DNA from: Rhodospirillaceae bacterium SYSU D60007
Lineage (GTDB): Bacteria > Pseudomonadota > Alphaproteobacteria > Reyranellales > Reyranellaceae
Assembly: GCA_003574685.1 (NCBI GenBank)
Contig: QOCQ01000011.1
Span: 1 to 64,000 of the forward strand
Length of the DNA: 64,000 bases
Direction: 5' to 3'
Shown: positions 1,575 through 37,802 of the stretch, piece after piece
How the letters are laid out: each line of letters begins with the position of its first letter
How positions within the stretch are numbered: position 1 is the first letter of the stretch
Translations under genes and position numbers: made by a program
Notes under the pieces: generated by a model
The model's database searches: none
What the model was told of the DNA's origin: nothing
The model's input: only the letters and a program-made list of their open reading frames with translations

Positions 1575-1819
1575 GGTCGCAGGTTTCTTCACGGTGCGGT
1601 TAGGCGTTCTGCCAATGTTCATGCAATAGTGCACTGCGAAACGCTACTTGTTCGCGGTCTATTGACGTAATGTTCACAAAACTACTGTAGTTCTATCGCA
1701 ATTGTGCAAATATACGTGAATATCGGAATCTTTTGAGAACACATCTTTAACGATAGCTTGATTTGCTTGTCTGCCGCTTGACGCAGCCGGGTGCAGCCGC
1801 CACAGATCGGCGTCGCCGG
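1575..1819. promoter_or_regulatory. AT-rich intergenic region with a candidate promoter
   Basis: No gene seen here. The stretch from about 1610 to 1770 is visibly AT-rich against its surroundings. TTGACG at 1662-1667 and TGTAGT at 1686-1691, 18 bases apart, make a plausible sigma-70-type promoter reading towards the nuclease gene at 1820. AATGTTCA occurs twice (near 1615 and 1669) and could be a regulator half-site. This is pattern-level evidence only. Confidence 0.3.
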
Positions 1820-2311
1820 ATGAAGCCTGCCTTTCTTGCCGCCCTTGTTGCTTGCTGCCTCGCATCGGCTACCTGGGCGCGCGCCGAGACCATCCTGTCG
1901 GGCATGGCGTCCGGGCTCGACGAGGACTCCATCGCCGTGCAGGGCAAGCGGGTGCGGCTGTGGGGCATCGACGCGCCCGGCCTCGAGCAGACGTGCAAGC
2001 GTGCCGGCAAGGCCTGGCCCTGCGGCCGGGAGGCGGCGCGCGCGCTCAACCGGCTGGTGACCGGCAATACGGTGCGCTGCATCGTGATCGTCGAGGACAA
2101 GCTGCGCCGCCTGGTCGTGGGCGACTGCACGCTGGGCGGCGAAAGCCTCTCGCGCTGGATGGTGCGCAACGGCTGGGCCGTGATGGCGCGCCAAACCACC
2201 GCCTATGCGAAGGACGAGGCCGAGGCGAAGGAAGCGCGCCGCGGCATCTGGTCCAGCGAGTTCGAAATGCCCTGGGACTGGCGCATCCGCCAGCGGCTGA
2301 AAGGCCGGTAG
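1820..2311 (+). CDS. Secreted thermonuclease-family (SNase-fold) protein
   Basis: Staphylococcal-nuclease-like proteins hydrolyse DNA or RNA with Ca2+. This one is 163 residues. Starting at ATG 1820 gives a clear signal peptide (MKPAFLAALVACCLASATWARA, cleavage near residue 22), so it is likely periplasmic or secreted. The SNase core shows in VRLWGIDAPGLEQTC (the conserved Asp loop) and in the GREAARALNRLV helix; the Arg-rich segment EDKLRRLVVGD corresponds to the second catalytic region. The C-terminal KEARRGIWSS followed by a short tail is typical of alphaproteobacterial members. It is convergent with the CoxL-like gene (6-base gap). Nuclease activity itself is inferred. Confidence 0.85.
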   Translation: MKPAFLAALVACCLASATWARAETILSGMASGLDEDSIAVQGKRVRLWGIDAPGLEQTCKRAGKAWPCGREAARALNRLVTGNTVRCIVIVEDKLRRLVVGDCTLGGESLSRWMVRNGWAVMARQTTAYAKDEAEAKEARRGIWSSEFEMPWDWRIRQRLKGR

Positions 2312-2317
2312 GGACTC

Positions 2318-4618
2318 CTATTTGCCCGCCGCCTCACGGATCGCCGACCACACACGCTGCGGCGTGGCCGGCATCTGGATGTTGCGCACGCCCAACGGCC
2401 ACAACGCGTCCATGATGGCGTTGAGCATGGTGGGCGTGGAGCCCACCGTGCCTGACTCGCCCACACCCTTGACTCCCAGCGGATTGCCTTTGGCGGGCAC
2501 CGACTCGTCCAGCGCATTGTTGAACGTCGGCAGGTCATCGGCCCGCGGCATGGCATAATCCATGAACGAGCCGGTCAGAAGCTGCCCGCTTTCGGCGTCG
2601 TAGACCGCACCCTCCAGCAGCGCCTGGCCGATGCCCTGCGCCGTGCCGCCATGGATCTGGCCGAACACGATGGGCCGGTGCAGCGGTCGGCCGACATCGT
2701 CCACGGTGGTGTAGCGCGCGATCTCGACCTTGCCCGTATCGGGATCGATCTCGACCTCCGCCACGTGGGCGCCATTGGGCCAGGCGATGCCCTCCACGCT
2801 GCTGACGTTCTCGATAAAGATGCGCTTCTCCGGCTGGCGCGCCGCCAGCTCAAACAGGCCGATGGTACGGTCCGTGCCGACGATACGGAAGCTGCCGGCT
2901 TCGTACTGGATGTCACCGGCAGCCGCCTCAAGCGCATCCGCCGCCAGCTCGCGGCCCTTGTCGAGCAGCTTCTGCGTGCCGGCGGCCACCGCCGAACCGC
3001 CGATATAGGCCGAGCGCGATCCCATCGAGCCCACGCCGCCGACGCGGTCGGAGTCGCCCATCGCGATCTCGATTTTGCCGGCGTCGATGCCCAGCAGCTC
3101 GGCGGCAAGCTGTGTGAAGCTGGTCTGCAAGCCCTGCCCCATGCCCTGCGTGCCCATCCAGATACGCAGCTTGCCGCCGCCCAGCACCTCGTAATGCGCC
3201 ATCTCGCTCAGCACATTGGCCGAGGTCCACTCGACGTAGGTCGCGAGGCCACGACCATAGAGCTTGCCGCGCTTCTCGGCCGCCTGCTTGCGGGCGGCAA
3301 AGCCGTCCCAGTCCGCGGCCTCCAGCACTTTGGTCAGGAACAGGTCGAAATCGCCGGAATCGTATTTCTCGCCCATCGCCGTGGTGTAGGGCATCTGCGC
3401 CGGCTTCACGAAGCTGCGCCGCCGCAGCTCGGCGGGATCGATGCCGGTTTGCCGGGCGGCTGTGTCCATCAGCCGCTCCAGATCAAGGATGCACTCCGGC
3501 CTGCCGGCACCGCGATAGGCGCCGATGGTCGCCGTATTGCTGAGCACGCAGGCCAGCCGCAGATCAAGCGTCGGGATGTCGTAGGTGCCGGTCACGACCT
3601 TGGGCCCGACGAACAACGGGATCACGACACCAGCCCGCGACGGGTACGCGCCGATATTGGCCCAGGCCTCCAGCCGCAGGCCCAGAATCCGGCCGTCCTT
3701 GTCGAGCGCCAGGGAAGCCTTGTGAAGCTGGTCGCGGCCAGCGGTGGTGCCCGCGAACTCTTCGCCGCGTTCGGCCCGCCACTTCACCGGAAGCTTCAGC
3801 ACCTTGCAGGCCCATACCGCCACCGACTCGTCGGGCTGAATGCCCACCTTCATGCCGAAGCCGCCGCCGATGTCGCGCACCAGCACGCGCACCGTCTCCT
3901 TCGGCATGTTCAGGATGGTCTCGCACAGCGTATCGCGCGTCACGGACGGGTTCTGGCTGGCGATGTGCACCACGATGCGATCGCACTCCCACTCGGCCAG
4001 CACCGCGCGTGGTTCCATGGCGTTGACGATCAGCCGCTGGTGCTCGATCTCCAGCGACACAACATGCGCTGCGGCCCTGAAGGCGGCATCGGTCTTCGCC
4101 TGGTCGCCGAAGCGGTTGACACCGATCACGTTGCCCGGTGCGTCGTGCCACACCAGCGGCGCACCTTCCGCCAGCGCCGCTTTCGTGTCGGCCACTGCCG
4201 GAAGCATGTTGTATTCGACCTCCACCAGCTCGGCCGCGTCCTGTGCGTGGGCTCGTGTTTCGGCGATCACGGCAACGACCGGCTCGCCGACATGACGAAC
4301 CACATCGTGGGCCAGTGAGCGGCGCGGCGGCATCTCGGGCTTCTGGCCGTCGGGACGCGGGAACATCGCCGGAAATGCGAAGGTGCCGACGCCATCCTTC
4401 TCCATATCGGCCCAGGTGAAGACCGCGACCACGCCCGGCGCCGCCTTCGCCGCTGCCGTGTCAATTGACACGATCTTCGCGTGCGCGTGCGGCGAGCGCA
4501 CCAGCACCATCTCGACCTGGCCGGGCCGTGAGAGATTGTCGGCGAAACCGCCGGTGCCTGTCAGAAGCCGCTGATCCTCGACACGACTGATGTACTGCGC
4601 CTTGCCAAACGCCGCCAT
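2318..4618 (-). CDS. Molybdopterin-binding subunit, form II CoxL-like (xanthine dehydrogenase family)
   Basis: Large Mo-cofactor subunit of the xanthine oxidase/CO dehydrogenase superfamily; such enzymes hydroxylate aldehydes, purines or other heterocycles. The 766-residue frame starts at ATG 4618 (GGAG upstream), preferred over a TTG ten codons earlier. Visible are the N-terminal hammerhead domain (about 15-130), GGGFG at 251-255, AYRGAGR at 367-373 and a C-terminal GVGESG carrying the likely catalytic Glu. AYRGAGR is the form II signature; true form I CO dehydrogenase has AYxCSFR, so CO oxidation is unlikely. No FAD subunit, [2Fe-2S] subunit or maturation gene lies next to it, so its partners must be encoded elsewhere. 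The substrate is unknown. Confidence 0.9.
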
Positions 4619-4762
4619 GAACTGCTCCGCGAAACTGCTCTTGCGCAAAAGGGGCCGGACTATAGCGGCTCACGTGATGAAGGAAACAGCCGCGCGCAAT
4701 GCCGCGGCCATCACATCATCTTGTCCCTGCATTCCCCGTGCCAATGTGATGGCCGGCCCTGC

Positions 4763-6361
4763 TTACGCGGCCCGCGCATCCTCGCGGATCATGTCGGCGC
4801 CCTTCTCGGCAATCATGATGGTGGGCGCGTTGGTATTGGTGGTCGTGACGCTCGGCATGACGGAAGCGTCGATCACGCGCAGCCCGGCAAGGCCATGCAC
4901 CCGCAGCCGTGAGTCGACCACGGCCTGCGGGTCCTCGCCCATACGGCACGTGCCGACGGGATGATAGACAGTAGTACCAGTGCGGCGGCCGAAATCCGCC
5001 AGCGCCTCGTCCGTGCGCACGTCGGACCCGGGCGCGGTTTCGCTGGCGGAATGACGCGCCAGCGCCGGCGCCTCGAAGATCCGCCGTGCATGGCGCAGGC
5101 CGGCGACCAGCACCCGCAAATCGTCTGCTGCCGAGAGATAGTTCGGCCGGATCACCGGATGCGCAAACGGATCGGGCGAGACGGCCATGATCGTGCCGCG
5201 GCTTTCCGGCCGCGCAATCGAGCAGGCCACGGTCATGCCCGCTTCGCGCTCCAGCGCGCCGAAGCGCAAATTGTCGTAGCTGGCCGGCGTAAACAGGAGC
5301 TGGATATCGGGGCTGGCCAGTCCCTCGCGGCTGCGCGCCAGCACCATGGCGCTGCTGACGCCGAAGGTCAGCGCGCCGCGTCCCGTCGTCAGCCAGCGCG
5401 CCACCTCGCCCGCCAGCCGGACGCCGCGCGCGAGCTGGTTGATCGAGACGGCGTCCTTCACGCGATGGGCAATGCGGGCACAATAGTGGTCGGACAGGTT
5501 GGCGCCGACACCGGGCAGGTCGTGCCTGACCTCGACGCCGATCGACTTCAGGTGTGCCGCTGATCCGACACCCGAGATTTGCAGCAGGTGCGGCGAATTG
5601 ACTGTGCCGCCCGAGAGGATCACTTCGCGCGCCGCACGTATCTCGCGCATGACGCCATCCTGCTGAAAGGCAACGCCGGTGCAGCGCTTGCCATCGAAAA
5701 TCAGGCGCGCCACGCGCGCGTCGGTCTCAATGCAAAGATTGGCGCGCCCGCGCGCACGACGCAGGAACGTCGTGGCCGTGGACCCGCGGAAGCGGCCATT
5801 GCGTGACATCTGGGAATAGCCCACACCCTCCTGCTGCGGCCCGTTGAGATCGGGGCTGAGCGCGAAGCCTGCCTGTTGCGCGGCCTCGACGAAGCGATGC
5901 GTCAGCGGCAGGATGGTACGGTAATCCTCGACCTGGAGCGGACCGCCTTTGGCGCGGTTTGGGCCATCGCCGGATACGTAGTTCTCCGATTTCATGAAGT
6001 ACGGCAACACCTCGTCCCAGCTCCAGCCGCGACAGCCGCGCTGAGCCCAGCCGTCGTAGTCGGCGGCGTTGCCGCGGATGTAGAGCATGCCGTTGATCGA
6101 GCTGCTGCCGCCCAGCACGCGCCCGCGTGGCCAGTGGATCGGCCGGTCGCCGGTGGCCGGCTGCGGTTCGGCGGTGTAGTTCCAGTTGATCACCGGATGA
6201 CGCAGCAGCTTCAGGACTCCGGCCGGCACATGGATCCAGGGATGCCGGTCGCGCGGTCCGGCTTCCAGCAGCACGACCTGCGCGCGTCCGTCCTCGCTGA
6301 GCCGGTCGGCCAGCACGCAGCCGGCCGAGCCGGCACCGATGATCACATAGTCTGCCTGCAT
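4763..6361 (-). CDS. GMC-family oxidoreductase (choline/alcohol dehydrogenase type)
   Basis: FAD-dependent glucose-methanol-choline oxidoreductase of 532 residues. The start at 6361 has a strong GGGGAGG site. The Rossmann FAD motif GAGSAG is at 9-14, GMC signature 1 ([13 protein letters not shown]) around 80-92, and the catalytic His lies in [10 protein letters not shown] near 467, with a partner Asn near 511. The substrate (choline, polyethylene glycol or another alcohol) cannot be read from the sequence. It sits 144 bases upstream of the CoxL-like gene on the same strand. It is divergent, across 110 bases, from a Liv-type transporter, which suggests the transporter may supply the substrate; that link is inference. 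Confidence 0.93.
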
Positions 6362-6471
6362 GAATGCCACCTCCCCGTTTTGCGATTGCAGCACGCACGG
6401 GCCGCGCTTTCCACACCTGGTGCCCTATTCTAAGCTGCCGTGACAAGGCGCCGGCAGCCGGGGAGGGCGTG

Positions 6472-7638
6472 ATGCTCAGAAGATCGTTCGTTTTGGGAAG
6501 CGTGCTGGCGGCACTGATGTCGGGCGGCGCTGTCGCGCAGGACGTGGTGAAGATTGGGCTGATCCTGCCCATGACGGGCCCCTTTGCCTCGACCGGACGC
6601 CAGATCGAGGCGGCCGTAAAGCTCTACATGGCGCAGCACGGAACGACCGCCGGCGGCAAGAAGATCGAGCTGATCGTCAAGGACGATACCGGCGTTGCCG
6701 ATGTCACCCGGCGGCTGGCGCAAGAGCTGGTGGTCAACGACAAGGTCACGTTCCTGGCCGGCTTCGGCCTGACACCAACGGCGCTGGCCACGGCGCCGAT
6801 CGCCACGCAGGCCAAAGTACCGCAGATCGTGATGGCTGCCGGCACGTCGGTCATCACGGAGCGCTCGCCGTTCATCGTGCGTACCAGCTTCACCCTGCCG
6901 CAGAACACGCTACCGATCGCCGACTGGGCCGTAAGGAACGGGCTGAAGAAAGTCGTTACGCTGGTCAGCGATTTCGGTCCCGGCCTGGATGCCGAGAAGA
7001 CCTTCACCGAGGTCTTCACCAAGGGCGGCGGCACGGTGCCCGAGAAGCTGCGCGTGCCGCTGCGCAATCCCGATTTCGCGCCCTTCCTGCAGCGGGCCGC
7101 CGACGCGAAGCCGGATGCACTGTTCGTGTTCGTGCCGTCGGGCGCCGGCTCCGCGGTGATGAAACAGTTCGCCGAGCGCGGGTTGGACAAGGCAGGAATC
7201 ACGCTGATCGGACCCGGCGACGTGACCGACGACGACATCCTCAACGACATGGGCGACGTGGCGCTGGGCACCATCACCAGCATGCACTACTCGGCGGCGC
7301 ACAACTCGCCGGAAAACAAGACCTACGTCGCGGCCTTTCGCAAGGCCACCAACGGCATGCGGCCGAACTTCATGTCGGTCGGCGGCTGGGACGGCATGCA
7401 CCTGATTTACCAGGCGCTGGCGAAGACAGGTGGCAATACTGACGGGACGGCCCTGGTCAATGCCATGAAGGGCATGCAGTGGATGAGCCCGCGCGGGCCG
7501 ATCTCGATCGACCCGGAAACCCGCGACATCGTGCAGAACGTCTATGTGCGCAAGGTCGAGCGCGTCGACGGCGAGCTCTACAATGTCGAGTTCGCCACCT
7601 TCGAAGCCGTCAGGGACCCCGGCAAGGAGAAGAAGTAG
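6472..7638 (+). CDS. ABC transporter substrate-binding protein, branched-chain (LivK) type
   Basis: Periplasmic binding protein of the HAAT family, 388 residues. ATG 6472 follows GGGGAGGG and opens a signal peptide (MLRRSFVLGSVLAALMSGGAVAQ, cleavage near 22). The mature N-terminus VVKIGLILPMTGPFASTGRQ is the characteristic first strand and ligand loop of type I periplasmic folds. It leads the five-gene operon with two permeases and two ATPases (7658-10962). Members of this family also bind aromatic acids, amides and urea, so leucine is not assured. The divergent GMC/CoxL-like genes hint at a catabolic substrate. Confidence 0.93.
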   Translation: MLRRSFVLGSVLAALMSGGAVAQDVVKIGLILPMTGPFASTGRQIEAAVKLYMAQHGTTAGGKKIELIVKDDTGVADVTRRLAQELVVNDKVTFLAGFGLTPTALATAPIATQAKVPQIVMAAGTSVITERSPFIVRTSFTLPQNTLPIADWAVRNGLKKVVTLVSDFGPGLDAEKTFTEVFTKGGGTVPEKLRVPLRNPDFAPFLQRAADAKPDALFVFVPSGAGSAVMKQFAERGLDKAGITLIGPGDVTDDDILNDMGDVALGTITSMHYSAAHNSPENKTYVAAFRKATNGMRPNFMSVGGWDGMHLIYQALAKTGGNTDGTALVNAMKGMQWMSPRGPISIDPETRDIVQNVYVRKVERVDGELYNVEFATFEAVRDPGKEKK

Positions 7639-7657
7639 GTAGCGTGAATCGGGTCTG

Positions 7658-8518
7658 ATGCTCACCATCCTCTTCGACGGCCTCGCCTACGGCATGATCC
7701 TGTTCGTGCTGGCCTGCGGGCTGGCGGTGACGCTGGGCTTGATGAACTTCGTCAACCTGGCGCATGGCGCGTTTGCGATGGCCGGCGGCTACATCACCGT
7801 GCTGCTGATGAGCCGTGCCAGCGTTCCGTTCCTGCTGTGCCTGCCCATCGCCTTTGCCATCACGGCGCTGATCGGCCTGCTGCTGGAACGCACACTCTAT
7901 GTCTGGCTCTACAGCCGCCCGCACCTCGATCATGTGCTCTTCACCATCGGGCTGGTGTTCATGTCGATTGCGGCCGTGGACTACACCATGGGCGCGCAAC
8001 AGCAGATCATCCGCCTGCCCGTCTTCTTGCAAGGGCGCCTCGAGGTGCTGGGGGTCAGCATCGGCGTGTACCGCCTGTTCGTCATTCTCGTGTGCGGCGT
8101 GCTGGTTGTCGTGCTGCAATCCATTCTCGTCTTCACGCGCTTCGGCAGCCGGCTGCGCGCCGCAGTCGACGACCAGCGGGTGGCCCGCGGGCTTGGTATT
8201 GACGTCGATGCCGTCTTTGCGATCACCTTTGCCGCCGGTTCGGGGCTGGCGGGACTGGGTGGCGCACTGGGCGCGGAAATCCTCGGGCTGGATCCGACCT
8301 TCCCGCTGAAGTTCATGATCTACTTCCTCATCGTGGTGACGGTGGGCGGCACCACCAGCATCACCGGCCCGTTTCTCGCCGCGATCCTGCTCGGCGTTGC
8401 CGATGTTGCCGGCAAATACTACGTGCCCGAGCTCGGCGCCTTCGTGATCTACGCCCTTATGGTGCTCGTGCTGTTGTGGCGGCCGCACGGCCTCTTCACC
8501 CGCCGCGGCGCACGCTGA
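7658..8518 (+). CDS. livH: Branched-chain-type ABC permease, LivH-like
   Basis: Inner-membrane permease of 286 residues with about eight hydrophobic segments. The N-terminal pattern LAYGMILFVLACGLAVTLGLMNFVNLAHGAFAM is diagnostic of LivH proteins, and the cytoplasmic loop that contacts the ATPases (RAAVDDQRVARGLGID) is present near residue 165. It begins 19 bases after the binding-protein stop. It would pair with the LivM-like permease that follows. Confidence 0.93.
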   Translation: MLTILFDGLAYGMILFVLACGLAVTLGLMNFVNLAHGAFAMAGGYITVLLMSRASVPFLLCLPIAFAITALIGLLLERTLYVWLYSRPHLDHVLFTIGLVFMSIAAVDYTMGAQQQIIRLPVFLQGRLEVLGVSIGVYRLFVILVCGVLVVVLQSILVFTRFGSRLRAAVDDQRVARGLGIDVDAVFAITFAAGSGLAGLGGALGAEILGLDPTFPLKFMIYFLIVVTVGGTTSITGPFLAAILLGVADVAGKYYVPELGAFVIYALMVLVLLWRPHGLFTRRGAR

Positions 8519-8523
8519 TCGTG

Positions 8524-9507
8524 ATGGCTGCCGACTGGGTCCGGCGCATCGCTGTGAACCACCGCGAGTGGGTGTTCTGGATCGTTGCCATCGCCCTGCC
8601 GCTGCTGTTTCCGGGCAAGCTGCTGCTGATCAACGAGATCGCGATTCTGGCATTATTCGCGCTGTCGCTCGACCTGCTGCTGGGATACGCCGGCATTATC
8701 TCCCTGGGACATGCTGCGTTTTTCGGCGTTGGCGCCTATGCCGCCGGCCTGCTCGCGAAGCACGGGCTCGCCGAACCACTGGTCGGCCTTCTCCTGTCCG
8801 CGGCGGCGGCAGCAGTGCTCGGCTTTCTCACCAGCTTCCTGGTGCTGCGAGGCTCGGATCTCACACGTCTGATGGTGACCATGGGCATTGGCCTGATGCT
8901 TCTTGAGCTTGCCAACCGCTTCGACACGATCACCGGCGGCGCCGACGGGCTGCAGGGCGTGGTCATGGCGCCCTTGCTGGGGCTGTTCGCCTTCGACCTC
9001 GCCGGCCGCACCGCCTGCGCCTACAGCATGGCGATCCTGCTGGTGCTGTTCCTGCTGGCACGCCGGCTGGTGCGCTCCCCCTTCGGCCTGTCGCTGCGTG
9101 CGGTAAAGGCAAATCGCCTGCGCGCCGTCTCCGTCGGCGTGCCGGCGGACACACGCCTGGTCACGATCTATACGATTGCCGCTGCCTATGCTGGCGCCGC
9201 CGGCGCCCTGCTGGCGCAGACCACGCAATTCGTTTCGCTCGACGTGCTCGACTTTCACCGCTCGGCCGACGTGCTGCTGGTGCTGGTTCTGGGCGGTTCG
9301 GGCTATCTCTATGGCGGCCTGATCGGGGCCGCGATCTTCAAGGTGATGCAGGACTGGCTGGCCGCGCAGACGCCGCAATACTGGCAATTCTGGATCGGTC
9401 TGCTGCTGGTTGTGATCGTCCTGGCGGGTCGCGAGCGTGTCGCCGTGGCCATACGCCGGCGCTGGACGGCGCTGACGCGACGCTTCGCAGGAGAGCCGAC
9501 ACCGTGA
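8524..9507 (+). CDS. livM: Branched-chain-type ABC permease, LivM-like
   Basis: Second permease, 327 residues. It has the LivM hallmark LLLGYAGIISLGHAAFFGVGAYAAGLL near residue 50 and the coupling loop SLRAVKANRLRAVSVGV near 195. The start at ATG 8524 lies five bases after the LivH stop; an adjacent in-frame GTG at 8521 cannot be excluded. Its TGA overlaps the GTG start of the LivG-like gene (GTGA), showing translational coupling within the operon. Confidence 0.93.
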   Translation: MAADWVRRIAVNHREWVFWIVAIALPLLFPGKLLLINEIAILALFALSLDLLLGYAGIISLGHAAFFGVGAYAAGLLAKHGLAEPLVGLLLSAAAAAVLGFLTSFLVLRGSDLTRLMVTMGIGLMLLELANRFDTITGGADGLQGVVMAPLLGLFAFDLAGRTACAYSMAILLVLFLLARRLVRSPFGLSLRAVKANRLRAVSVGVPADTRLVTIYTIAAAYAGAAGALLAQTTQFVSLDVLDFHRSADVLLVLVLGGSGYLYGGLIGAAIFKVMQDWLAAQTPQYWQFWIGLLLVVIVLAGRERVAVAIRRRWTALTRRFAGEPTP

Positions 9508-10256
9508 GCCTGGCGCTGGAAACGGTCGCTCTGTGCAAGAGCTTCGGCGCGCTCGCGGCGACCCGCGAGGTGTCGCTTCGGGTTGCACGCGGTGCCCGGC
9601 ATGCCCTGATCGGCCCGAACGGCGCCGGCAAGACTACGCTGATCAACCTGCTGACCGGCGTGTTGCGGCCCGACGCCGGACGTGTGCTGCTCGGCGGCAC
9701 TGACATCACGGAGCTTGCGCCGCACACCCGCGCCCGCCGCGGCATGACCCGCACTTTCCAGATCAATCAGCTTTTCGCCGGGCTGACGCCGCTGGAGAGT
9801 GTGGCGCTGGCCATTTTCGAACGGCATCGGTTCGGCCGGCACTGGTGGCGTCCGCTTGCCTCCCACACCGCTGTCATGGACGAAGCTGCGGCACTGCTGC
9901 AGCGCTTCGGCCTCGCCAATGCGGCGCACACGCCCGTGGCTACTCTGCCGTACGGCAGGCAGCGCCTGCTGGAGATCGCGGTCGCCATTGCTGGCCAGCC
10001 GCACGTGCTGTTGCTGGATGAGCCAGCCGCCGGCGTGCCGGAGGACGAGCGGCACGAGATCCTGTCGATCGTCAAGGGGCTGCCCGGGGATGTGGCCGTA
10101 CTGCTGATCGAGCACGACATGGACCTGGTGTTCAGCTTCGCGCGCCGCATCTCGGTGCTGGTTGACGGCTCGCTGCTGGTCGAGGGTGCACCCGACGAAG
10201 TGGCCGGCGATCCGCGCGTGCGGGCGGCCTATCTCGGCGAGGCGCCCCTTGGCTGA
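9504..10256 (+). CDS. livG: Branched-chain-type ABC ATPase, LivG-like
   Basis: ATP-binding subunit, 250 residues. Walker A GPNGAGKTT is at 37-45, the signature region reads LPYGRQRLLEIA (usual for LivG rather than LSGGQ), and Walker B is HVLLLDEPAAG. It starts with GTG overlapping the livM stop and ends inside the start region of the LivF-like gene. Paired LivG/LivF ATPases drive transport through LivH/LivM. Confidence 0.93.
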   Translation: MSLALETVALCKSFGALAATREVSLRVARGARHALIGPNGAGKTTLINLLTGVLRPDAGRVLLGGTDITELAPHTRARRGMTRTFQINQLFAGLTPLESVALAIFERHRFGRHWWRPLASHTAVMDEAAALLQRFGLANAAHTPVATLPYGRQRLLEIAVAIAGQPHVLLLDEPAAGVPEDERHEILSIVKGLPGDVAVLLIEHDMDLVFSFARRISVLVDGSLLVEGAPDEVAGDPRVRAAYLGEAPLG

Positions 10257-10962
10257 GTTGCTGTCGGTCGAGCGCTTGCGCAGCGGCTATGCCGAGGCCG
10301 TCGTGCTCGACAACGTATCGCTGTCGCTGGACGAGGGAGAAGCGCTGGCCGTGCTCGGCCGCAACGGTGCCGGCAAGACGACACTGATCGCCAGCCTGCT
10401 TGGCCTGACAACCTGGCACGCCGGCACGGTACGGCTGGCAGGACATGACATTACAAGGCTGGCGTCCAAGCGTCGGGCGCGCGCCGGTATCGGCTGGGTA
10501 CCGCAGGAGCGCAGCATCTTCCGCTCGCTCTCGGTCGAAGAGAACCTCACGGCCATCCAGCGCCCGGGGCCGTGGAGCGTACCGCGCGTTTTCGAACTCT
10601 TTCCACGACTGAGCGAACGGCGGCAGCATCTCGGTGATCAGCTTTCCGGCGGCGAACAGCAAATGCTCGCCATAGCCCGCGCGCTGGTGCTCAATCCGCG
10701 GCTGATCCTGTTCGACGAGCCGCTCGAGGGTCTCGCGCCGCTGATCGTGGAAGAGGTGCTCTCGATCCTGCGCCGCCTCCTGCGCGAAGAACGCCTGTCG
10801 GCAATCGTGGTTGAGCAGAAGGCGCGCCAGGTGCTGGCTGTCACTGACCGCGCCATCATCCTCGACCGCGGTGCCGTGGTGCATGAGGGCCCCAGCGCCA
10901 CCCTGCTGGAAGACCCGCAACTTCTCGCTGCGAAGCTTGGCGTCGGAGACAGGGCGAAATAG
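10249..10962 (+). CDS. livF: Branched-chain-type ABC ATPase, LivF-like
   Basis: Second ATPase, 237 residues from the chosen TTG start at 10249, which overlaps the livG stop and follows GGCGAGG; no ATG lies at a suitable position. Walker A GRNGAGKTT is at 37-45, the signature is LSGGEQQML, and the Walker B region is LILFDEPLEGLAP. LSVERLRSGYAEAVVLDNVSL is a typical LivF N-terminus. It is the last gene of the transporter operon and ends 6 bases from the stop of the convergent AraC regulator. Confidence 0.92.
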   Translation: MAELLSVERLRSGYAEAVVLDNVSLSLDEGEALAVLGRNGAGKTTLIASLLGLTTWHAGTVRLAGHDITRLASKRRARAGIGWVPQERSIFRSLSVEENLTAIQRPGPWSVPRVFELFPRLSERRQHLGDQLSGGEQQMLAIARALVLNPRLILFDEPLEGLAPLIVEEVLSILRRLLREERLSAIVVEQKARQVLAVTDRAIILDRGAVVHEGPSATLLEDPQLLAAKLGVGDRAK

Positions 10963-10968
10963 ACGAGC

Positions 10969-11979
10969 TCAGAGCCGTGTCGTCCGCCGTACGTCCGAGG
11001 GCGCTGCGCCAAAGCGGCGACGGAACTCCCGGTTGAAGTACGAGAGATCACCGAATCCGGTCTCGAAAGCCAGCGTGCTGATCGTGCGACCGGCCTGGCG
11101 CGGATCGGCCAGCAGGCGATGCACGTGCGCAAGACGCAAGTCGAGCACGTATCTCGACAAGGTCGTGCCTTCGCCCTCGAACAGCTTGTGGATGTAGCGT
11201 GTGCTGACACGTTGCCTGCGGGCGAGGGCGGCAGGCGACACATCCCCGCCGGTCAGGTTCTGCGCGATATCGGCCTTGATGGCACACAGCCGCGCTGCGC
11301 GTACGCCGCGGCCCAGAGCGACCTCCGCAACGTCCCGGGCCGCGCCGATCGCGAGCGCACAGAGATCATGGATGTGCGTCGCAGCGGCGGCACGCAGCGC
11401 CTGCGTTTCCAGCGCGTGCTCGTCGTCGAGCAGGTCGAGGTAGCGCGTCAGCAGACGCAGCACGTCCGAGTTTGGCGGTAGCGGCCGTACGAGCGCATCC
11501 TCGAGGCCAGGGGCCAGTGTCATCATGAGCTTGCGCGGCAGCGCAACGCTGACGAAGGAGCATGGTTCCGGCACAACATGCGTGTCGATATCTGCGTTTG
11601 ATACGAGGAGGCCTCCCCCGGGCTCCAACGTCGCTTCCCGGCCGAGCTGGGAGACGATACGGCGGCCGGTTTCGTGAATCAGCAAGAGGACGTCGTCGAT
11701 GCCATCAGCCAAGAGCCCTGGTGTGAGTTGAGCCATGCATCCGGCAGTGAACGTCATGCGCTCCACACAAACACCCGTATTGATGCCGGAGACAACGCCG
11801 GGGCTCGGCATACGGCGACTCCTTATATCCACAAGCAACGGCCCGCCGGACAGTGACGAATGCGTCCGTCGCGGAACCGCACGACCGGCTACGTCGAACC
11901 ATGTCGGGAGGCGCTGCCCCGGAGAGAGGTTCTCCGTCGCAAAGTGGAATGCCTTGAGATCCGAAATCGCCGAGCCCAT
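10969..11979 (-). CDS. AraC-family transcriptional regulator
   Basis: Regulator of 336 residues with an N-terminal AraC-binding-like (cupin-related) domain and two C-terminal helix-turn-helix motifs; the signature ALAFETGFGDLSYFNREFRRRFG lies near the C-terminus. The open frame extends upstream, but the ATG at 11979 has a GATGAGG site and begins a normal family N-terminus (MGSAISDLKAFHF). It is convergent with the Liv operon and divergent from the methyltransferase remnant. Its target is unknown; the Liv operon or the decayed gene pair are candidates. Confidence 0.9.
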   Translation of the reverse strand: MGSAISDLKAFHFATENLSPGQRLPTWFDVAGRAVPRRTHSSLSGGPLLVDIRSRRMPSPGVVSGINTGVCVERMTFTAGCMAQLTPGLLADGIDDVLLLIHETGRRIVSQLGREATLEPGGGLLVSNADIDTHVVPEPCSFVSVALPRKLMMTLAPGLEDALVRPLPPNSDVLRLLTRYLDLLDDEHALETQALRAAAATHIHDLCALAIGAARDVAEVALGRGVRAARLCAIKADIAQNLTGGDVSPAALARRQRVSTRYIHKLFEGEGTTLSRYVLDLRLAHVHRLLADPRQAGRTISTLAFETGFGDLSYFNREFRRRFGAAPSDVRRTTRL

Positions 11980-12049
11980 GGCAGCCTCATCGGCCGAATG
12001 ACCGGTACGTAATCCCACCGCACGCCGTCGACAGGATTGTGACCGATCC

Positions 12050-12065
12050 TGTTTCAGTTGAAACA
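12050..12065. promoter_or_regulatory. Palindromic operator candidate upstream of the AraC gene
   Basis: TGTTTCAGTTGAAACA is a 7-bp inverted repeat with a two-base centre, about 70 bases upstream of the AraC start and 94 bases before the methyltransferase remnant. A second inverted pair (AGGAT / ATCCT, 12033-12049) sits directly beside it. The position suits an operator for either divergent gene, but no binding protein can be assigned. Confidence 0.3.
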
Positions 12066-12158
12066 CACGCGTTCGCTCGGCTCCAGATCGCCGTTCGGTC
12101 CAGTCCAGGCGGAGGGGGCACTTCGCGCTAGTTCTGGCGACAACGCCGGGAGAGTTGC

Positions 12159-13062
12159 ATGGACACGATCGAAAGGACTGCCACGGATCTCGCCCGCCTC
12201 TCACCGGATCGCATCATGCGGCTCTGCCTCGGGTACTGGGCATCGTCTTGGGCTTCACAAACGCGGTGCGCGGGACTTTTTCGACGCGCTGGTCGCGCTG
12301 GGCATGCTCGAGCGGCACGACGCCGCCTATCACAACACGCCCGAAGTCGATCTCTATCTCGACCGCAACAAGCCTGCCTACGTCGGCGGAATGCTGCGCT
12401 GTTCGAGGTGCAGTATGCCGACCCGACCTCGGTCATGCAGTTCGTTCAGGCAATGACCAGTCTGAGTCTGCCCGTCGCGCGTGCCCTCGCCTGCCGGTTT
12501 CCGTGGTCGGACTACGATACGTTCATCGATATCGGCACCGCCGAAGGTGCTGTGCCCGTCGAGATTGCCCGGATGCACGCGCATCTCTCCGGCGGTGGAC
12601 TCGACCTGCCGCAGGTAGAGCCGCTATTCGAAGCCTATGTCAGGCGGCATGGCTTTGGTCACCGTCTGAAATTCCATGCCGGCGATTTCTTCGACGGGCC
12701 GCTTCCCTCTGCCGATGTGCTTGTGATGGGTCACATCCTGCACGACTGGGATCTGGAGGGGGAGCCCTGCCTGATGCGCGGCACGATCCCGCCGGACGTC
12801 ATCATACCGTTGCACAGCCACGCAGATCCGGAAACGTTCCTTCCGACTGCCGGCGAGGTTGAGGGACTCACGCAAACACCTGACGGATACCGTTGGATAC
12901 GCATCGGCGAGGGCGACATCTTTCATGTCCCCGGTGGCGCACGACACGCCTTTCGTAATCGCACAGCAAACCCCGCGTTCATGATCGTGGTCAGTACCGC
13001 CCGGATGGGCCGGTTCGCCCGAAGAGAATGCGCAGGTCGGGCTGCGGCTAGCTGGCCAATAG
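12159..13062 (+). pseudogene. Composite remnant: hydroxyneurosporene-type methyltransferase fused to a cupin
   Basis: A SAM-dependent methyltransferase followed by a cupin, both shortened by deletions. 12159-12240 encodes an intact N-terminus ([16 protein letters not shown]). The frame then jumps to [21 protein letters not shown] (from 12247), jumps again near 12395 to [15 protein letters not shown], and runs through the SAM-binding core (FIDIGTAEGAVPVEIA) to MGHILHDWDLE. Near 12762 it passes directly into a cupin lacking its N-terminus (MRGTIPPDVIIPLHSHADPETF). Near 13017 a last shift leads to PEENAQVGLRLAGQ and a TAG at 13062. Compared with my memory of the families, each junction lacks about 30-50 codons. 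No functional product is expected. The open frame continuing past 13062 is antisense to the TRAP permease and is not coding. Confidence 0.8.
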
Positions 13063-13070
13063 GTCTCCTT

Positions 13071-15671
13071 TCAAGCTGCTGCTGTAACGGGGACAGGCTC
13101 GCGGCGGCGGCGCTGCAGTTGCAGGAGGGCGACCAGACCCAGCAGCAGCAGCGCTGGCAGGTATACCCAGTGCTTGTCCGGCCGGTCGGCGGGCAGCAGG
13201 ACATGCTTCACCGTAAACCCGCTTTCCAGCCCTACGCGCTTGGCGGCCGAGCCGAACTTGACGGGTCCCACTGTCACCATATCGCCTGCTGCCATCAGGG
13301 TGACGCCGGCATCCGTCAGACGCTTGCGGCCTTCGCCGGCCGCGGCGACCGGCAGGCTGATCGTCTTGGTCACGTCGTCACCCTCAAGGTTGGTGCCTTC
13401 GACGACCAGCAGGAGCCGCCCGCCCACGGGCAGACGGCCGGCGATGTCGAACACCTGCCCGGCGGGCGCCTCGGCATAGGGCGCGTACAGCATGTCCATG
13501 AAGAAGCCCGGCCTGAACAGGGTGAAGCATACCAGCAGCAGCAAGGCGGACTCCCACAGGCGGCTTTTGGTCAGGAACCAGCCCATCGTTGCCGCGGCGA
13601 ATACAAGGATGGCGGCCGTCGAGATGACCACGACAAGGAGGCCTTCGAACCAGCTTCCAATGTCGATCATCAGGAGCTGCGGGTTGAAGATGAACACGAA
13701 GGGCAGGATCGCCGTGCGCATGGAGTAGACCGTGCCCTGAAGACCGGTCTTGATGGGATCCTCGCCTGAAATGGCGGCCGCCGCAAAAGAGGCCAGACCC
13801 ACCGGCGGGGTCACATCGGCCATGATGCCGAAGTAGAACACGAACATATGCACGGCGATCAGCGGAATCGCGATGCCCGCCTGCGCACCCAGCTCGACGA
13901 TCACCGGCGCCATCAGCGTGGCGACAAGGATGTAGTTCGCCGTCGTGGGAATGCCCATGCCGAGAACCAGGCAGATCACCGCCGTCAACAGCAGCATGGC
14001 AATCACATTGCCGCCCGACACGAACTCGACGAAATCGGTCATCATCAGGCCCATGCCGGTGAGCGTCACGGTGCCGACGATGATGCCGGCGGTCGCCGTG
14101 GCGATGCCGATGCCGATCATGTTGCGCGCGCCGAGATTGAAACCCTCGACCAGCTCCCACAGCCCGCGGCGCGCCGCGGCAAGAGGATCCTCGCGGCGGA
14201 ACAGGGCGATGAGAGGCCGCTGCGTGACGACGATGCCGATGATGGTGGCGGTCGCCCAGAAAGCGGACAGGCCCGGCGACAGCTCCTCGACCATCAGGCA
14301 CCACAGCAGCACGACGATCGGCAGCACGAAGTGCAGGCCGGTGCGCGCCACGGCCCATGCTTCCGGCAGCTCCGTGATCGGCGCATCGGGATCATCGAGC
14401 TTGAGATCGGGATACCGCGCGCCATACCACAGGGTCAGCAGGTAGAGCGCAATGCCGGCGACGGCCACGATCCAGGGGGCTGCGGCGCCGAACAGCGCCT
14501 GGATGGCGAGTACGCCGTAATAGATGGCGCACATCACCACGACGGTGCCGCTCCAGCCCAGCGCCTGCCGCAGCCAGCGCTGGGTGCGCGAGCGCTCCAC
14601 CGAGCGCATCAGGGGCCGCGAGCCGATCTTCACTGCTTCCAGATCGACGATGTAGAAGAGCGCGATATAGGAGATCACCGCCGGCAGTACGGCATGCTTG
14701 ACGATCTCCGAATAGGGCAGCCCCACATACTCGGTCATCAGGAACGCCGCTGCGCCCATGACAGGCGGCATGATCTGGCCGTTGATCGATGAGGCGGTCT
14801 CGATGGCACCCGCCTTCACTCCGGAAAGCCCGGTTCGCTTCATCATCGGGATGGTGAAAATGCCGCCGGAGACGACGTTGGATACCGACGAGCCGGACAC
14901 GACGCCGTTCAGCGCCGACGACACCACGGCGACCTTGGCCGGGCCGCCACGCAGGTGCCCCAGCAGCGCCACCGAGATCTGCATCATGTAGTTGCCGCCG
15001 CCGGCCTTCTCGAGCAGCGAGCCGAACAGCACGAACAGGAAGACGAAGCTGGTCGAGACCCCCAGCGCCACGCCGAACACGCCCTCCGTGGTCAGCCACT
15101 GGTGCTGGAGGAACTTGGTGAGCGAGGAGCCCTTGTGCTGGATCACCTCCGGCATGTACGGGCCAGCGAAGGTGAAGGCGATGAACACCGCCGCCACCGC
15201 CACCATCGGCGGACCCAGCGAACGGCGCGTGGCCTCCAGCAGCAACAACAAGCCGCCGCCGGCTATGACAAGATCGTACCAGGTCGGCGTGCCGGGCCGC
15301 TGCGACAGCGCCACGTAGAACGTGAAGAGATACGAACCCGCAAAGGCGCCGGCCAGAGCGAAGATCCAGTCCAGCGCCGGTATGTACTGCCGTGGCGAGC
15401 GCCGGAAGGCCGGATAGCAGGTGAAGGCGAGGAAGATCGCGAAACCGAGGTGAATGGCACGCGCTTCGGTGTCGTTGAGGATGCCGAAGCCGAAGAGGAA
15501 AGGCAGCGGCGAGGCGTACCAGACCTGGAACGCCGACCAGGCCACGGCGACGACCAGCAACAGCGTTGCGACATGTCCTGCGGGCTCCCGCCCGCCGGTG
15601 TCGGCCTCAGCGACAAGCTGCTGCAGTTCCTGTTCGCTCGCGGGTCGGTGCGGCAAGCCATCCGTGGTCAT
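13071..15671 (-). CDS. TRAP transporter, fused 4TM/12TM permease with DUF3394 tail
   Basis: Fused small (DctQ-like) and large (DctM-like) membrane subunits of a TAXI-type TRAP transporter, 866 residues. The start at 15671 has a near-perfect AGGAGGGGG site; the longer open frame upstream is not coding. Many hydrophobic helices are visible, with conserved DctM segments such as GVVSGSSVSNVVSGGIFTIP and GMGIPTTANYILVA. The last 170 or so residues, including SGFTVKHVLLPADRPDKHWVY, match the DUF3394 extension, followed by a basic tail. Transport is driven by an ion gradient rather than ATP. It is the last gene of the rpiR-aminotransferase-TAXI operon. Confidence 0.93.
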   Translation of the reverse strand: MTTDGLPHRPASEQELQQLVAEADTGGREPAGHVATLLLVVAVAWSAFQVWYASPLPFLFGFGILNDTEARAIHLGFAIFLAFTCYPAFRRSPRQYIPALDWIFALAGAFAGSYLFTFYVALSQRPGTPTWYDLVIAGGGLLLLLEATRRSLGPPMVAVAAVFIAFTFAGPYMPEVIQHKGSSLTKFLQHQWLTTEGVFGVALGVSTSFVFLFVLFGSLLEKAGGGNYMMQISVALLGHLRGGPAKVAVVSSALNGVVSGSSVSNVVSGGIFTIPMMKRTGLSGVKAGAIETASSINGQIMPPVMGAAAFLMTEYVGLPYSEIVKHAVLPAVISYIALFYIVDLEAVKIGSRPLMRSVERSRTQRWLRQALGWSGTVVVMCAIYYGVLAIQALFGAAAPWIVAVAGIALYLLTLWYGARYPDLKLDDPDAPITELPEAWAVARTGLHFVLPIVVLLWCLMVEELSPGLSAFWATATIIGIVVTQRPLIALFRREDPLAAARRGLWELVEGFNLGARNMIGIGIATATAGIIVGTVTLTGMGLMMTDFVEFVSGGNVIAMLLLTAVICLVLGMGIPTTANYILVATLMAPVIVELGAQAGIAIPLIAVHMFVFYFGIMADVTPPVGLASFAAAAISGEDPIKTGLQGTVYSMRTAILPFVFIFNPQLLMIDIGSWFEGLLVVVISTAAILVFAAATMGWFLTKSRLWESALLLLVCFTLFRPGFFMDMLYAPYAEAPAGQVFDIAGRLPVGGRLLLVVEGTNLEGDDVTKTISLPVAAAGEGRKRLTDAGVTLMAAGDMVTVGPVKFGSAAKRVGLESGFTVKHVLLPADRPDKHWVYLPALLLLGLVALLQLQRRRREPVPVTAAA

Positions 15672-15711
15672 GGTCCCCCTCCTGCCTGCCGCACTCCCCC
15701 GCTTCGCGCGG

Positions 15712-16686
15712 CTACATCCAGCCTTTCTCCTTGTAGTACTTCGCAGCGCCCGGATGCAGCGGCGCCGAGAGGCCGTCCTTGACCATGCTCTTCGGGTCGA
15801 GATTGGCCAGCGCCGGGTGCAACTTCTTGAACTCGTCAAAATTGTCGAACACCGACTTGACCAGCGCGTAGACGGTTTCATTCGGCGTCTTTGCCGAGGT
15901 CACCATCGTCGCCAGCACGCCGTAGGTTTTGGTCGGCTGCGGGTTGTTGTTGTACATGCCACCCGGGATCGTGGCGGCGGCGTAGTAGCTGTTGGCCTTG
16001 AGCAGCTTTTCGACCGCCGGACCCTCCAGCGGAACGAGCTTCGCCCCGCAGGTCGTCGTCGGATCCTGGATGTTGGCCGAGGGATGGCCGACCGCATAGA
16101 AGAAACCATCGATCTTGTTGTCGCACAGCGCCGGTCCGTGCTCGTCGGCCTTCAGCTCCGATGCCAGCGCGAAGTCGGAGAGCTTCCAGCCCATCGCGCC
16201 CAGCAGTTCCTCCATCGAGGCGCGGGTCCCCGACCCCGGATTGCCGACGTTGAAGCGTTTGCCCTTGAAGTCCTCGAATTTCGTGACACCGGCCTCCTTG
16301 CGCGCCAGCACGGTGAAGGGCTCGGGGTGCAGCGAGAAAACCGCGCGCAGATCGGCGTACGGCCCCGCGTCCTTAAACTGCTTCACACCCTTGAGCGCGT
16401 TGAAATGCACATCCGACTGGGCGACGCCGAAATCGAGCTCACCGGCCTTGATGGTGTTGACGTTGTAGGCCGAGCCGCCGGTCGACTCCACCGAGCAGCG
16501 GATGCCGTGCGTCTTGCGGTCCTTGTTCAGCAGCCGGCAGATGGCGCCGCCGGCGGCATAGTAGACGCCCGTAACCCCGCCGGTGCCGATGGTCACGAAC
16601 TTCTGTTGCGCCTGCGCCGGCCCGGGCAGCGTCGTGGCCAGCGCCACAATGGCCGCCGCCGACATGGCGGCAAAGGTCTTCACCAT
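15712..16686 (-). CDS. TAXI-family TRAP transporter solute-binding protein
   Basis: Periplasmic receptor of 324 residues with a signal peptide (cleavage near ALPGPAQAQ, residue 26). The mature start [27 protein letters not shown] is the TAXI signature, and the ligand-binding region [28 protein letters not shown] follows. TAXI receptors bind glutamate, 2-oxoglutarate and other small acids; the ligand here is unknown. It lies 40 bases upstream of the fused permease. The aminotransferase immediately upstream suggests an amino compound or its keto acid as substrate. Confidence 0.94.
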
Positions 16687-16722
16687 TTCACCTCTCCTTC
16701 TCCTCGATGCCGGTCCTGTCAG

Positions 16723-18057
16723 CTAACGGTGCAGACCGGCGATGGCGGCATCGACGGCGCCGCCCAAAAGCTCGACAATCGTCTGGACATCCTGCGGCTG
16801 CACGATGAACGGCGGCGCCAGCAGCACATGATCGCCGCGTGCGCCGTCGATGGTGCCACCCATGGGGTACACGAGCAACCCGCGCGTCATCGCCTCGGCC
16901 TTGATTCGCGCATTGAGCTTCAGCGCCGGATCGAAAGGCCGCTTGTCGGCGCGGTCCTCCACCAGCTCGATCGCCTGGAACAGGCCCCGCCCGCGGATAT
17001 CGCCGACATGGTGGTGGTTTCCGAAGCGCTCGCGCAGCCGGCGCTGCAGCAGCGCTCCCTGCTGCACGACGTTGTCGAGCAGGCGATCGCGGCGGATGAC
17101 CTGCTGCACGGCGAGTGCGGCGGCGCAGGCAAGGGGATGGCCGATATAGGTGTGCCCGTGCTGGAACAGGCCCGAGCCGCCACTGATGGCATCAAAAACC
17201 TTGCCGCCCACCAGCACGGCGCCGATTGCGGCATACCCGCCGCCCAACCCCTTGGCGATGGTCATCAGGTCGGGCGCAATCCCTTCCTGTTCGCAGGCAT
17301 GCAGGGTGCCCGTGCGGCCCATGCCGCTCATCACCTCGTCGAGGATCAGCAGCACGCCATGGCGATCGCAAACCTCACGTACCTTGCGGAAGTATCCCGG
17401 CGCCGGCGGCACGGCGCCTGACGTTGCGCCCACCACCGTTTCGGCCACGAAGGCGATCACCGTGTCCGGGCCGAGGGCCCGGATCTTCTCGTCGAGTTCA
17501 TCGGCCAGACGCTGGCCGTACTGCCCGGGCGTTTCATCGTCGCGCTGTCCCCGATAGGCGTAACAGGGGGACACGTGGTGCGTCTCGATCAGCAGCGGCG
17601 CGAACTGCTTACGACGCCATTCATTGCCGCCCACCGCCAGCGCACCCAGCGTGTTGCCGTGATAGCTCTGGCGGCGCGCGATGAAATGGCGGCGCTGCGG
17701 CTCGCCCTTCTCGACGAAGTATTGGCGCGCCAGCTTCAGCGACGCCTCGATGGCCTCGGATCCGCCGGACACCAGATAGACATGCGACATGCCCGCGGGC
17801 GCATGCGCGACCAGATCGGCGGCCAGTTCCTCCGCGGCATCCGTCGTGAAGAAGCTGGTATGCGCATAATCGAGCCGATCGAGCTGCGCGTGCATGGCCG
17901 CGACAACATCGGGATGGCCATGCCCCAGGCAAGAGACAGCCGCGCCGCCGCTGGCGTCGAGGTAGGCCTTTCCCTCCTTGTCGTGGATGTAGAGGCCGCG
18001 CGCGGTGGCAGCGCGGGGATAGTCGTGGCGAATAAGGCGATGCAGGATTCTGGTCAT
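16723..18057 (-). CDS. Class III (PLP) aminotransferase
   Basis: Fold-type I, subgroup III aminotransferase of 444 residues. Visible are SGGSEAIEASLKLAR (97-111), the cofactor Asp in LILDEVMSGMGRTG (Asp240) and the Schiff-base Lys269 in TIAKGLGGGY. The start at 18057 overlaps the rpiR stop (ATGA), giving tight coupling. These enzymes act on omega-amino acids, amines or taurine-like compounds, so the specificity is open. Clustering with a TAXI-TRAP importer suggests it acts on the imported compound. Confidence 0.92.
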   Translation of the reverse strand: MTRILHRLIRHDYPRAATARGLYIHDKEGKAYLDASGGAAVSCLGHGHPDVVAAMHAQLDRLDYAHTSFFTTDAAEELAADLVAHAPAGMSHVYLVSGGSEAIEASLKLARQYFVEKGEPQRRHFIARRQSYHGNTLGALAVGGNEWRRKQFAPLLIETHHVSPCYAYRGQRDDETPGQYGQRLADELDEKIRALGPDTVIAFVAETVVGATSGAVPPAPGYFRKVREVCDRHGVLLILDEVMSGMGRTGTLHACEQEGIAPDLMTIAKGLGGGYAAIGAVLVGGKVFDAISGGSGLFQHGHTYIGHPLACAAALAVQQVIRRDRLLDNVVQQGALLQRRLRERFGNHHHVGDIRGRGLFQAIELVEDRADKRPFDPALKLNARIKAEAMTRGLLVYPMGGTIDGARGDHVLLAPPFIVQPQDVQTIVELLGGAVDAAIAGLHR

Positions 18058-18947
18058 GGCGTGATCCGTCGTCCTTCGCTGCCGAGCGCGTAAACGTCCA
18101 GCGCCGCCAGCTCGGATTCGGTTGCGGTAATGGCAATCAGCGCCTGCTCGCCGCGCCGGGTGGCGAACAGCGCTACCAGCAGCTCGGCTACGGCGAAGGC
18201 TGGCAGCATGGTGTGGAAGAAGGAGGGCGACTCGGTGGGCACAATGATGGCGCAACCCGCGCTGCGCGCCAGTGGTGCAGCGGCGCTGTCGGTGATCGCC
18301 ACCACATCAAGCCCTCGCCCCGCAGCATGGCGAGCGAGTTCGAGCGTGGTACGCACATAAGGTTTAACGCTCACGGCCAGCAGCGCATCGCCCGGTCGCG
18401 CGCCGCGCAGCGCATCGGCCCCGGTGCCGCCCGCGCCTTCCAGCAGATGACAATCGGCGCCGACAAAGGCGGCGACGTAGGAGAAATGAAAGGCGATGCT
18501 GAAGCTGGAGCGCTGCCCCACCGCATAGATCCGCCGTGCGCCGCCCAGAATGCGCGCCGCCGTGCGGATCTGCGCCAGCACATCCTCCTCCGCGAGCCGC
18601 TGCAGGCTGGCACCGCTTGCGGCCAGTATGTCGGCAAGCAGCCGTCCCTCCCCTTCAGCCTTGCCGCGAGCGACCAACGCACCGCCGCGATCGGCAAAGC
18701 CGATGGCGCGACGGCGCACCGCCTGCGCGTAGAGATCACGCACCTCGTCGTAGCCATCGTAACCCAGCCGCTGCGCCAGCCGGGTCAGGGTCACCGGTGG
18801 CACACCGGCCCGCTGCGCCTGGCCGCGCATGGAAAGCAGGGCCACGTCATCCGGATGATCCAGCACCCAGCGCGCCGCGGCGCGCAGACGCGGCGGCAAG
18901 GTGTCGAACGTTGCCAGCAATCTGTCCTGCAGGGGTGCTTCGGGCAT
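18054..18947 (-). CDS. MurR/RpiR-family transcriptional regulator
   Basis: Regulator of 297 residues: N-terminal RpiR helix-turn-helix (about 1-80, with QRAGVPPVTLTRLAQRLGYDGYDEVR) and a C-terminal SIS domain (about 125-260) that binds a phosphorylated sugar or related effector. ATG 18947 is chosen; a GTG directly before it is an alternative. It is the first gene of the operon with the aminotransferase and TRAP system, so it probably regulates that operon. The upstream spacer contains two copies of ATTGTTTCA about 30 bases apart (near 18983 and 19015), possible operator half-sites. Confidence 0.9.
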   Translation of the reverse strand: MPEAPLQDRLLATFDTLPPRLRAAARWVLDHPDDVALLSMRGQAQRAGVPPVTLTRLAQRLGYDGYDEVRDLYAQAVRRRAIGFADRGGALVARGKAEGEGRLLADILAASGASLQRLAEEDVLAQIRTAARILGGARRIYAVGQRSSFSIAFHFSYVAAFVGADCHLLEGAGGTGADALRGARPGDALLAVSVKPYVRTTLELARHAAGRGLDVVAITDSAAAPLARSAGCAIIVPTESPSFFHTMLPAFAVAELLVALFATRRGEQALIAITATESELAALDVYALGSEGRRITP

Positions 18948-28570: not shown

Positions 28571-28617
28571 TCGTTCCCTCCCCACGCCCGAAGGCCTATC
28601 GCATATGACGATTTACC

Positions 28618-28740
28618 GTCGTCCTGAGCGCAGCGAAGGACCTGCGGTTGTGCCATCCGCGACGATAGGGCCAGTGAATCACCAGTGCCGCCATTCTTTG
28701 CGCGAAACACAGCAAGATCCTTCGCTTCGCTCAGGATGAC
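28618..28740. repeat. Inverted pair of 26-bp dispersed-type repeats
   Basis: The arm at 28618-28643 (core TCCTGAGCGCAGCGAAGGA) and the arm at 28715-28740 are reverse complements at 23 of 26 positions. They are separated by 71 bases and lie between the denD start and the lipoprotein stop. The core resembles intergenic repeats scattered through many GC-rich bacterial genomes (from memory). A long hairpin could form in the transcript. Confidence 0.8.
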
Positions 28741-28748
28741 GAGAAAGA

Positions 28749-37662: not shown

Positions 37663-37712
37663 GTTCCAGCACCGCCTGTCATCCCAGCACATTCGCATAC
37701 CCGCCAGAAATA

Positions 37713-37802
37713 GCCTTCATGGTGAGCTTGTCGAACCATGAAGGCACCGCAGAGCCGCCTGTGCCGGCCGCTTCATGGTTCGACAAGCTCACCATGAAGC
37801 GG
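37713..37802. repeat. Two stem-loop repeats in opposite orientation (REP-like)
   Basis: Unit 1 (37713-37745): GCCTTCATGGT pairs with ACCATGAAGGC around an 11-base loop. Unit 2 (37768-37802): CCGCTTCATGGT pairs with ACCATGAAGCGG around an 11-base loop. The loops (GAGCTTGTCGA and TCGACAAGCTC) are exact reverse complements, so the whole is also one large inverted repeat. It lies between two convergent genes (DUF1028 and HIT), a usual place for REP elements acting as terminators or mRNA stabilisers. Confidence 0.9.

Follow-up and report, generated by a model that had tools for sequence, protein, structure and literature searches.

Positions 12159-13062 of the window analysed here, a 64,000-nucleotide stretch of Rhodospirillaceae bacterium SYSU D60007 (assembly GCA_003574685.1, contig QOCQ01000011.1, positions 1-64,000 of the forward strand), very probably hold a pseudogene, namely the remnant of a horizontally acquired methyltransferase-cupin gene pair that was recently cut by at least four deletions. 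Five conserved pieces, three derived from an O-methyltransferase of the Methyltransf_2 family and two from a cupin, follow one another in family order, and each is free of internal stops when read in its own frame, as set by alignment to relatives. An earlier note, made from the sequence alone, had proposed that this segment is what several deletions left of a methyltransferase-cupin pair, and family alignments support that proposal; the four junctions fall within 4 nt of the breakpoints that it placed near 12243, 12395, 12762 and 13017. The locus clearly illustrates how a gene pair, probably an acquired one, can die by deletion rather than by point mutation, and the block-free site is known from sister species.

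Coordinates of the remnant, its junctions and its flanks in the window, followed by the other clusters of the stricter genome survey (contig:position)
Feature	Position	Strand	Description
livF-type ABC gene	10162-10962		flank of the inserted block
Inserted block	10963-13070		2,108 bp, with the livF-type ABC gene and the TRAP gene as its flanks
AraC-family regulator	10969-11979	-	divergent, within the block; PF12833 E 1.6e-18, PF14525 E 6.2e-8
S1	12159-12245	+	methyltransferase N-terminus, begins ATG; aligned to 87 relatives
J1	12246	+	28 codons in 71 of 87 relatives, one base here; about 83 bp lost; frame change
S2	12247-12396	+	methyltransferase N-terminal (dimerisation) region, ends YVGGML; out of frame with S1 and S3
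J2	12397-12398	+	32 codons in 72 of 87 relatives, two bases here; about 94 bp lost; S1 frame regained
S3	12399-12758	+	methyltransferase catalytic-domain piece LFEVQYADP...HILHDWDLE; PF00891 E 7e-18
J3	12758-12759	+	methyltransferase tail, spacer and about 38 cupin codons gone; in-frame fusion
S4	12759-13016	+	cupin core GEPCLMRGTIPP...STARMGRF; PF07883 E 4.9e-10
J4	13017	+	36-40 cupin codons gone; frame change
S5	13018-13062	+	cupin C-terminus PEENAQVGLRLAGQ, then stop
TRAP transporter gene	13071-15881		other flank of the block
Other cluster	C2:154863		46 bp
Other cluster	C6:29490		10 bp
Other cluster	C16:27.2-29.6 kb		cluster
Other cluster	C1:356.8-358.8 kb		pair

The remnant keeps both of its ends. 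The ATG of S1 is preceded by what, judged by eye, is a plausible ribosome-binding sequence, and S5, which resembles the cupin C-termini SPEENARIGIALPDAS of Mesorhizobium tamadayense and PPEENARLGIALPVG of Microvirga lupini, closes with a TAG at 13060-13062, in the same place as the end of related cupins. Between these ends the gaps were sized against 87 methyltransferase relatives and three cupins, the 87 rows containing the full-length paralogue on contig C16 of the same genome three times (L002, L007, L008) as well as a few distant members. The losses at J1 and J2 together bring back the reading frame, and at J3 the missing methyltransferase tail amounts to 86 residues in 77 of the 87 relatives. 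Cupin losses were counted by hand, that at J3 against the Microvirga terrae cupin and that at J4 against the cupins of Microvirga lupini (36 codons) and Mesorhizobium tamadayense (40 codons), and about 660-730 bp are missing across the four junctions. Compared with intact homologues, the usual measure of a bacterial pseudogene, the frame is disrupted by three gaps that change it and by one fusion, just as had been described: J1, J2 and J4 shift the frame and J3 joins two genes. The further description of each breakpoint as skipping about 30-50 codons does not suit J3, where the loss is far larger. Nor are the breakpoints regularly spaced, as had also been thought, because the retained pieces are of uneven length (87, 150, 360, 258 and 45 nt).

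In the methyltransferase part, S3 scores 65 bits against the PF00891 profile (gathering cut-off 22.3) over an incomplete catalytic domain, only profile positions 26-141 of 210 being matched, while S2 gives a weak match to PF08100 (E 0.071) that lies under the cut-off of that family. Over S3, protein identity to the nearest intact relatives does not exceed 68%, a value reached by the C16 paralogue; Mesorhizobium relatives, among the best 80 of 114 relatives in a scan of named genomes, are 63% identical. No close intact orthologue was found in the genus (4 genomes) or the family (75 genomes), this genome being counted in both, and at E up to 1e-30 the three genus-mates have no such methyltransferase; relatives of 51-57% identity occur in four other family genomes (G006, G059, G060 and G061). 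The label 'hydroxyneurosporene-type' used in the earlier note is not usable as a function, because the intact C16 paralogue scores far under the cut-off of the CrtF/BchU equivalog TIGR02716 (57.5 versus 276.1 bits); the remnant frame at 12402-13064 has no match to that model at E up to 0.01. By sequence, the closest solved structures are 22ow, named only 'Methyltransferase' (E 3.8e-29), and RedM, 8tji (E 6.2e-29).

The cupin part scores 39.4 bits against PF07883 (Cupin_2; cut-off 27.2) over profile positions 4-69 of 70, and S4 is 62% identical to a cupin on a plasmid of Microvirga terrae, with further relatives occurring in Microvirga and Mesorhizobium. This genome is the only one with such a cupin among the 75 genomes of the family (E up to 1e-8), and likewise the only one in wider samples of 385 class genomes (1e-14) and 398 phylum genomes (1e-15). 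Order, orientation and fusion suggest that the methyltransferase and the cupin were once adjacent genes. Among the genomes searched, none carries relatives of both side by side, and the remnant cupin, used as a query, has no match in any other methyltransferase locus compared. None of the cupins of Microvirga terrae, Microvirga lupini and Mesorhizobium tamadayense is part of a methyltransferase fusion; that of Microvirga terrae comes directly after a methyltransferase of another family. The Microvirga cupin as a query matches one methyltransferase locus, that of P. monticola (L055), at 27%, the match being a cupin of another type. A search by motif for cupin-like frames matched 29 of 82 loci, looked like noise and was not used, and a literature search on methyltransferases with cupins found nothing.

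Two side observations concern cupins elsewhere. In Paraburkholderia aromaticivorans (L111, 2900-4618) a cupin of a different type lies divergently beside a methyltransferase relative, and a 73%-identical copy of that cupin sits in the P. monticola locus, pairs which hint that methyltransferase and cupin may belong together more widely. The Microvirga lupini cupin (L243 at about 1489-1993; L246 at 13511-13933) also appears broken: stops interrupt the frame upstream of its core, and its N-terminal part is matched only weakly, at E 0.015, and in a different frame. An aminotransferase-NMT1-TRAP operon resembling the neighbour of the remnant lies some 3 kb away.

The damage appears to be young. The remnant is unchanged at all 43 alignment columns with 97% conservation or more, and changed at 6 of the 73 columns with 90% or more, a number equalled or exceeded in 7 of the 87 relatives, so that its changes lie in the upper tail of the family range, yet inside it. 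To this extent, that is for the methyltransferase part, the description of the remainder as almost undecayed is borne out. A branch test on the methyltransferase codons compared the remnant with the 54 other terminal branches long enough to count; the protein tree was kept fixed and had 83 sequences, after removal of duplicates and of rows lacking more than 20 codons. The ratio of change at codon positions 1 and 2 to that at position 3 is 0.150 on the remnant branch, a value reached by 18 of the 54; with position 2 alone set against position 3 it is 0.093, which 29 of the 54 reach. The surviving methyltransferase codons thus show no clear relaxation of constraint; ratios within the range of other branches point to evolution as a working gene for most of the branch, and the deletions therefore look recent. 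By a rough estimate the neutral period spans no more than about 0.04 substitutions per site, enough for a few tens of point changes, so that four deletions are many for such a period, though not impossible.

The remnant shares its inserted block with an AraC-family regulator, apparently intact, whose start codon (11979) was picked by eye; most of its length can be aligned with AraC genes in sister genomes, where no such regulator lies between the ABC and TRAP genes. In two sister species of the same genus (G001 and G003) those two genes end 2 and 13 bp apart, and the order of the genes around the site (1763-18255) is kept, at 77-91% protein identity with the TRAP gene excepted; the third genus-mate, G002, whose genome is 87% complete, has no TRAP match at E up to 1e-100 and is uninformative on the site. 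Third-position GC content is 0.69-0.78 in S2-S4 and 0.71 in the AraC frame, as against a mean of 0.82 (sd 0.06); that of S1 is 0.79, near the mean, and the other pieces are just about 1-2 sd low. Because the site is free of the block in two sisters and the other 74 family genomes gave no match to the cupin, the AraC-methyltransferase-cupin block was probably acquired horizontally, which is the simplest reading of these comparisons; loss of the block in both sisters and in the rest of the family is less likely. Since methyltransferase relatives exist in four family genomes, the case for horizontal acquisition rests on the cupin and the empty site.

The TRAP gene that borders the block has an unusual affinity of its own. 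It is 52-54% identical to its sister counterparts, which are themselves just 64% alike, and is closer to genes of Microvirga lupini (66%) and of rhizobial plasmids (67-69%) than to those of the sisters. These values are suggestive only, and the TRAP gene may have been replaced horizontally along with the block.

How common such damage is in this genome was gauged by self-comparison of 1.66 Mb (31% of the genome), with a stricter round that added proteins from 0.78 Mb of two sister genomes. Self-comparison yielded 84 clusters of frame-changing junctions, most of which look like short dispersed repeats (two were checked); the stricter search left 7 clusters in this genome and 5 in the 0.78 Mb of the sisters. 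Apart from the present locus, the clusters of the stricter survey are small frame shifts and one 540-bp in-frame gap. No second gene with at least two deletions of at least 50 bp was seen in the 1.66 Mb surveyed, a weak negative, because detection depends on a homologue within the sample and the stricter round picked up J2 alone among the four junctions of the remnant. Two of the listed clusters (G000 C16:27207-29565 and C1:356830-358796) consist of frame-broken matches, and their relatives map to C1 near 395-414 kb. The window itself contains, at 37690-37830 and 28580-28830, intergenic inverted repeats that form long hairpins (-69.9 and -99.2 kcal/mol as RNA) and look like repeats of the REP/MITE type; they gave 108 and 39 blastn alignments in the 1.66 Mb of this genome and 10 each in the 0.78 Mb of sister genomes, figures that count alignments rather than copies and include both arms.

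Against the reading as a pseudogene stands the single stop-free frame shared by S1, S3 and S4, part of a long open frame at 12159-13769 (536 codons), when a dead gene need not keep one. A frame running from 12159 through S1, a frame-shifted S2, S3 and S4 could in principle make a retained fusion protein, with the cupin core and the most conserved methyltransferase columns intact. Such a protein would, however, contain S2 read in the wrong frame, where openness is unremarkable (39 of 82 relatives are open there too), and a catalytic domain without its end, and its frame does not end at the cupin stop but enters TRAP antisense sequence. The earlier note held that homologues with the same compact layout in other genomes would mark this as a real short gene, and that layout was found in no other genome of the family, class, phylum and cupin-bearing samples searched. 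A living compact gene is therefore highly improbable, and S1, S3 and S4 probably share an open frame by chance. The long frame at 12159-13769 is an annotation trap, a stretch that looks like a novel methyltransferase-cupin fusion and probably is not one.

It is also quite improbable that the genes are intact in the real genome and that the four gaps stem from sequencing or assembly. The draft status of the genome (58 contigs) and the combination of four gaps with few point changes would suit an artefact of assembly or library; the contig, however, is 163 kb long, the genome is 99.81% complete, and, among the 40 of 91 candidates scored, the region matches elsewhere in the genome only the C16 paralogue, which, at 73%, is too different for the two to have collapsed together. 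An artefact, moreover, should recur, and the lack of a comparable multi-gap gene in the 1.66 Mb of the same genome, limited as that survey is, counts against one. A different possibility accepts the gaps as real and makes them simultaneous: incoming or broken DNA would have been cut several times and rejoined with the help of Ku, all four deletions arising at once. Several breaks within a single acquired block whose flanking genes are intact, the small amount of point decay and the presence of Ku loci all agree with this scenario, but successive deletions over a short time fit the same facts, and there is no sign of simultaneity. A single shattering event, which at about 80-450 bp lost per seam would be a miniature bacterial counterpart of chromosome shattering, thus seems unlikely; if true, it would mean that shattering and Ku-type end joining can kill foreign genes in one stroke.

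For the preferred reading, that of an acquired and recently broken gene pair, the following course of events would account for the locus. A methyltransferase-cupin pair, together with its divergent AraC regulator, would have been acquired horizontally and have settled with a branched-chain amino-acid ABC operon on one side and a TRAP-transporter operon on the other. The pair may then have become useless, a full-length relative of the methyltransferase staying on contig C16. Illegitimate recombination, of the slipped-strand or the end-joining kind, would recently have removed the missing 660-730 bp through four or more deletions, before many point mutations could build up. Strains that carry subsets of the deletions, if they exist, would show the order and mechanism of decay directly.

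Deletions of this kind arise via slipped mispairing at short repeats or via end joining. With a Mesorhizobium locus (L009) as a diverged proxy for the undeleted sequence, J1 overlaps by no more than 2 bp (CG), a length that often arises by chance, and the junction DNA of J2-J4 is ambiguous against relatives that are too diverged to prove repeats. A 22-base pattern at J1 has no counterpart in viral contigs, where one would hardly be expected. Two Ku (PF02735) loci in the genome lie over the cut-off and make end joining possible; in Streptomyces, end joining is reported to carry out mutagenic repair and is postulated to foster horizontal transfer (PMC5869714).

Erosion of bacterial pseudogenes by small deletions is a known process (PMC2916853, PMC5447742). 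Of 378 pseudogenes in Salmonella, 346 have a single lesion and the other 32 have more, short deletions being the commonest kind (PMC2916853). To call the decay seen here an odd mode, as the earlier note did, is thus an overstatement: pseudogenes with several lesions are a known minority, and the locus falls in the tail of the known distribution of lesions.

Set beside known systems, each half of the remnant is recognizable and each is cut short. The methyltransferase half resembles Methyltransf_2 enzymes (PF00891) in a catalytic-domain core that scores far over the cut-off of the family, and differs from them in lacking profile positions 142-210 and two stretches further upstream. The cupin half resembles single-domain cupins (PF07883) of Microvirga terrae, with 62% identity in the core, and of Mesorhizobium tamadayense, whose genus shares its C-terminal motif; it differs from them in lacking about 38 N-terminal codons and an internal 36-40. 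As an acquired segment, the locus is like the failed horizontal transfers described in PMC522871 in its patchy distribution, its lower third-position GC content and its block-free sister site, whereas here the regulator is apparently intact. As a decaying one, it is like the small-deletion pseudogenes described in PMC2916853 and PMC5447742, in which short deletions break an otherwise well-preserved gene in a strain- or species-specific manner; it differs in carrying at least four lesions, as against the single lesion of most Salmonella pseudogenes (PMC2916853).
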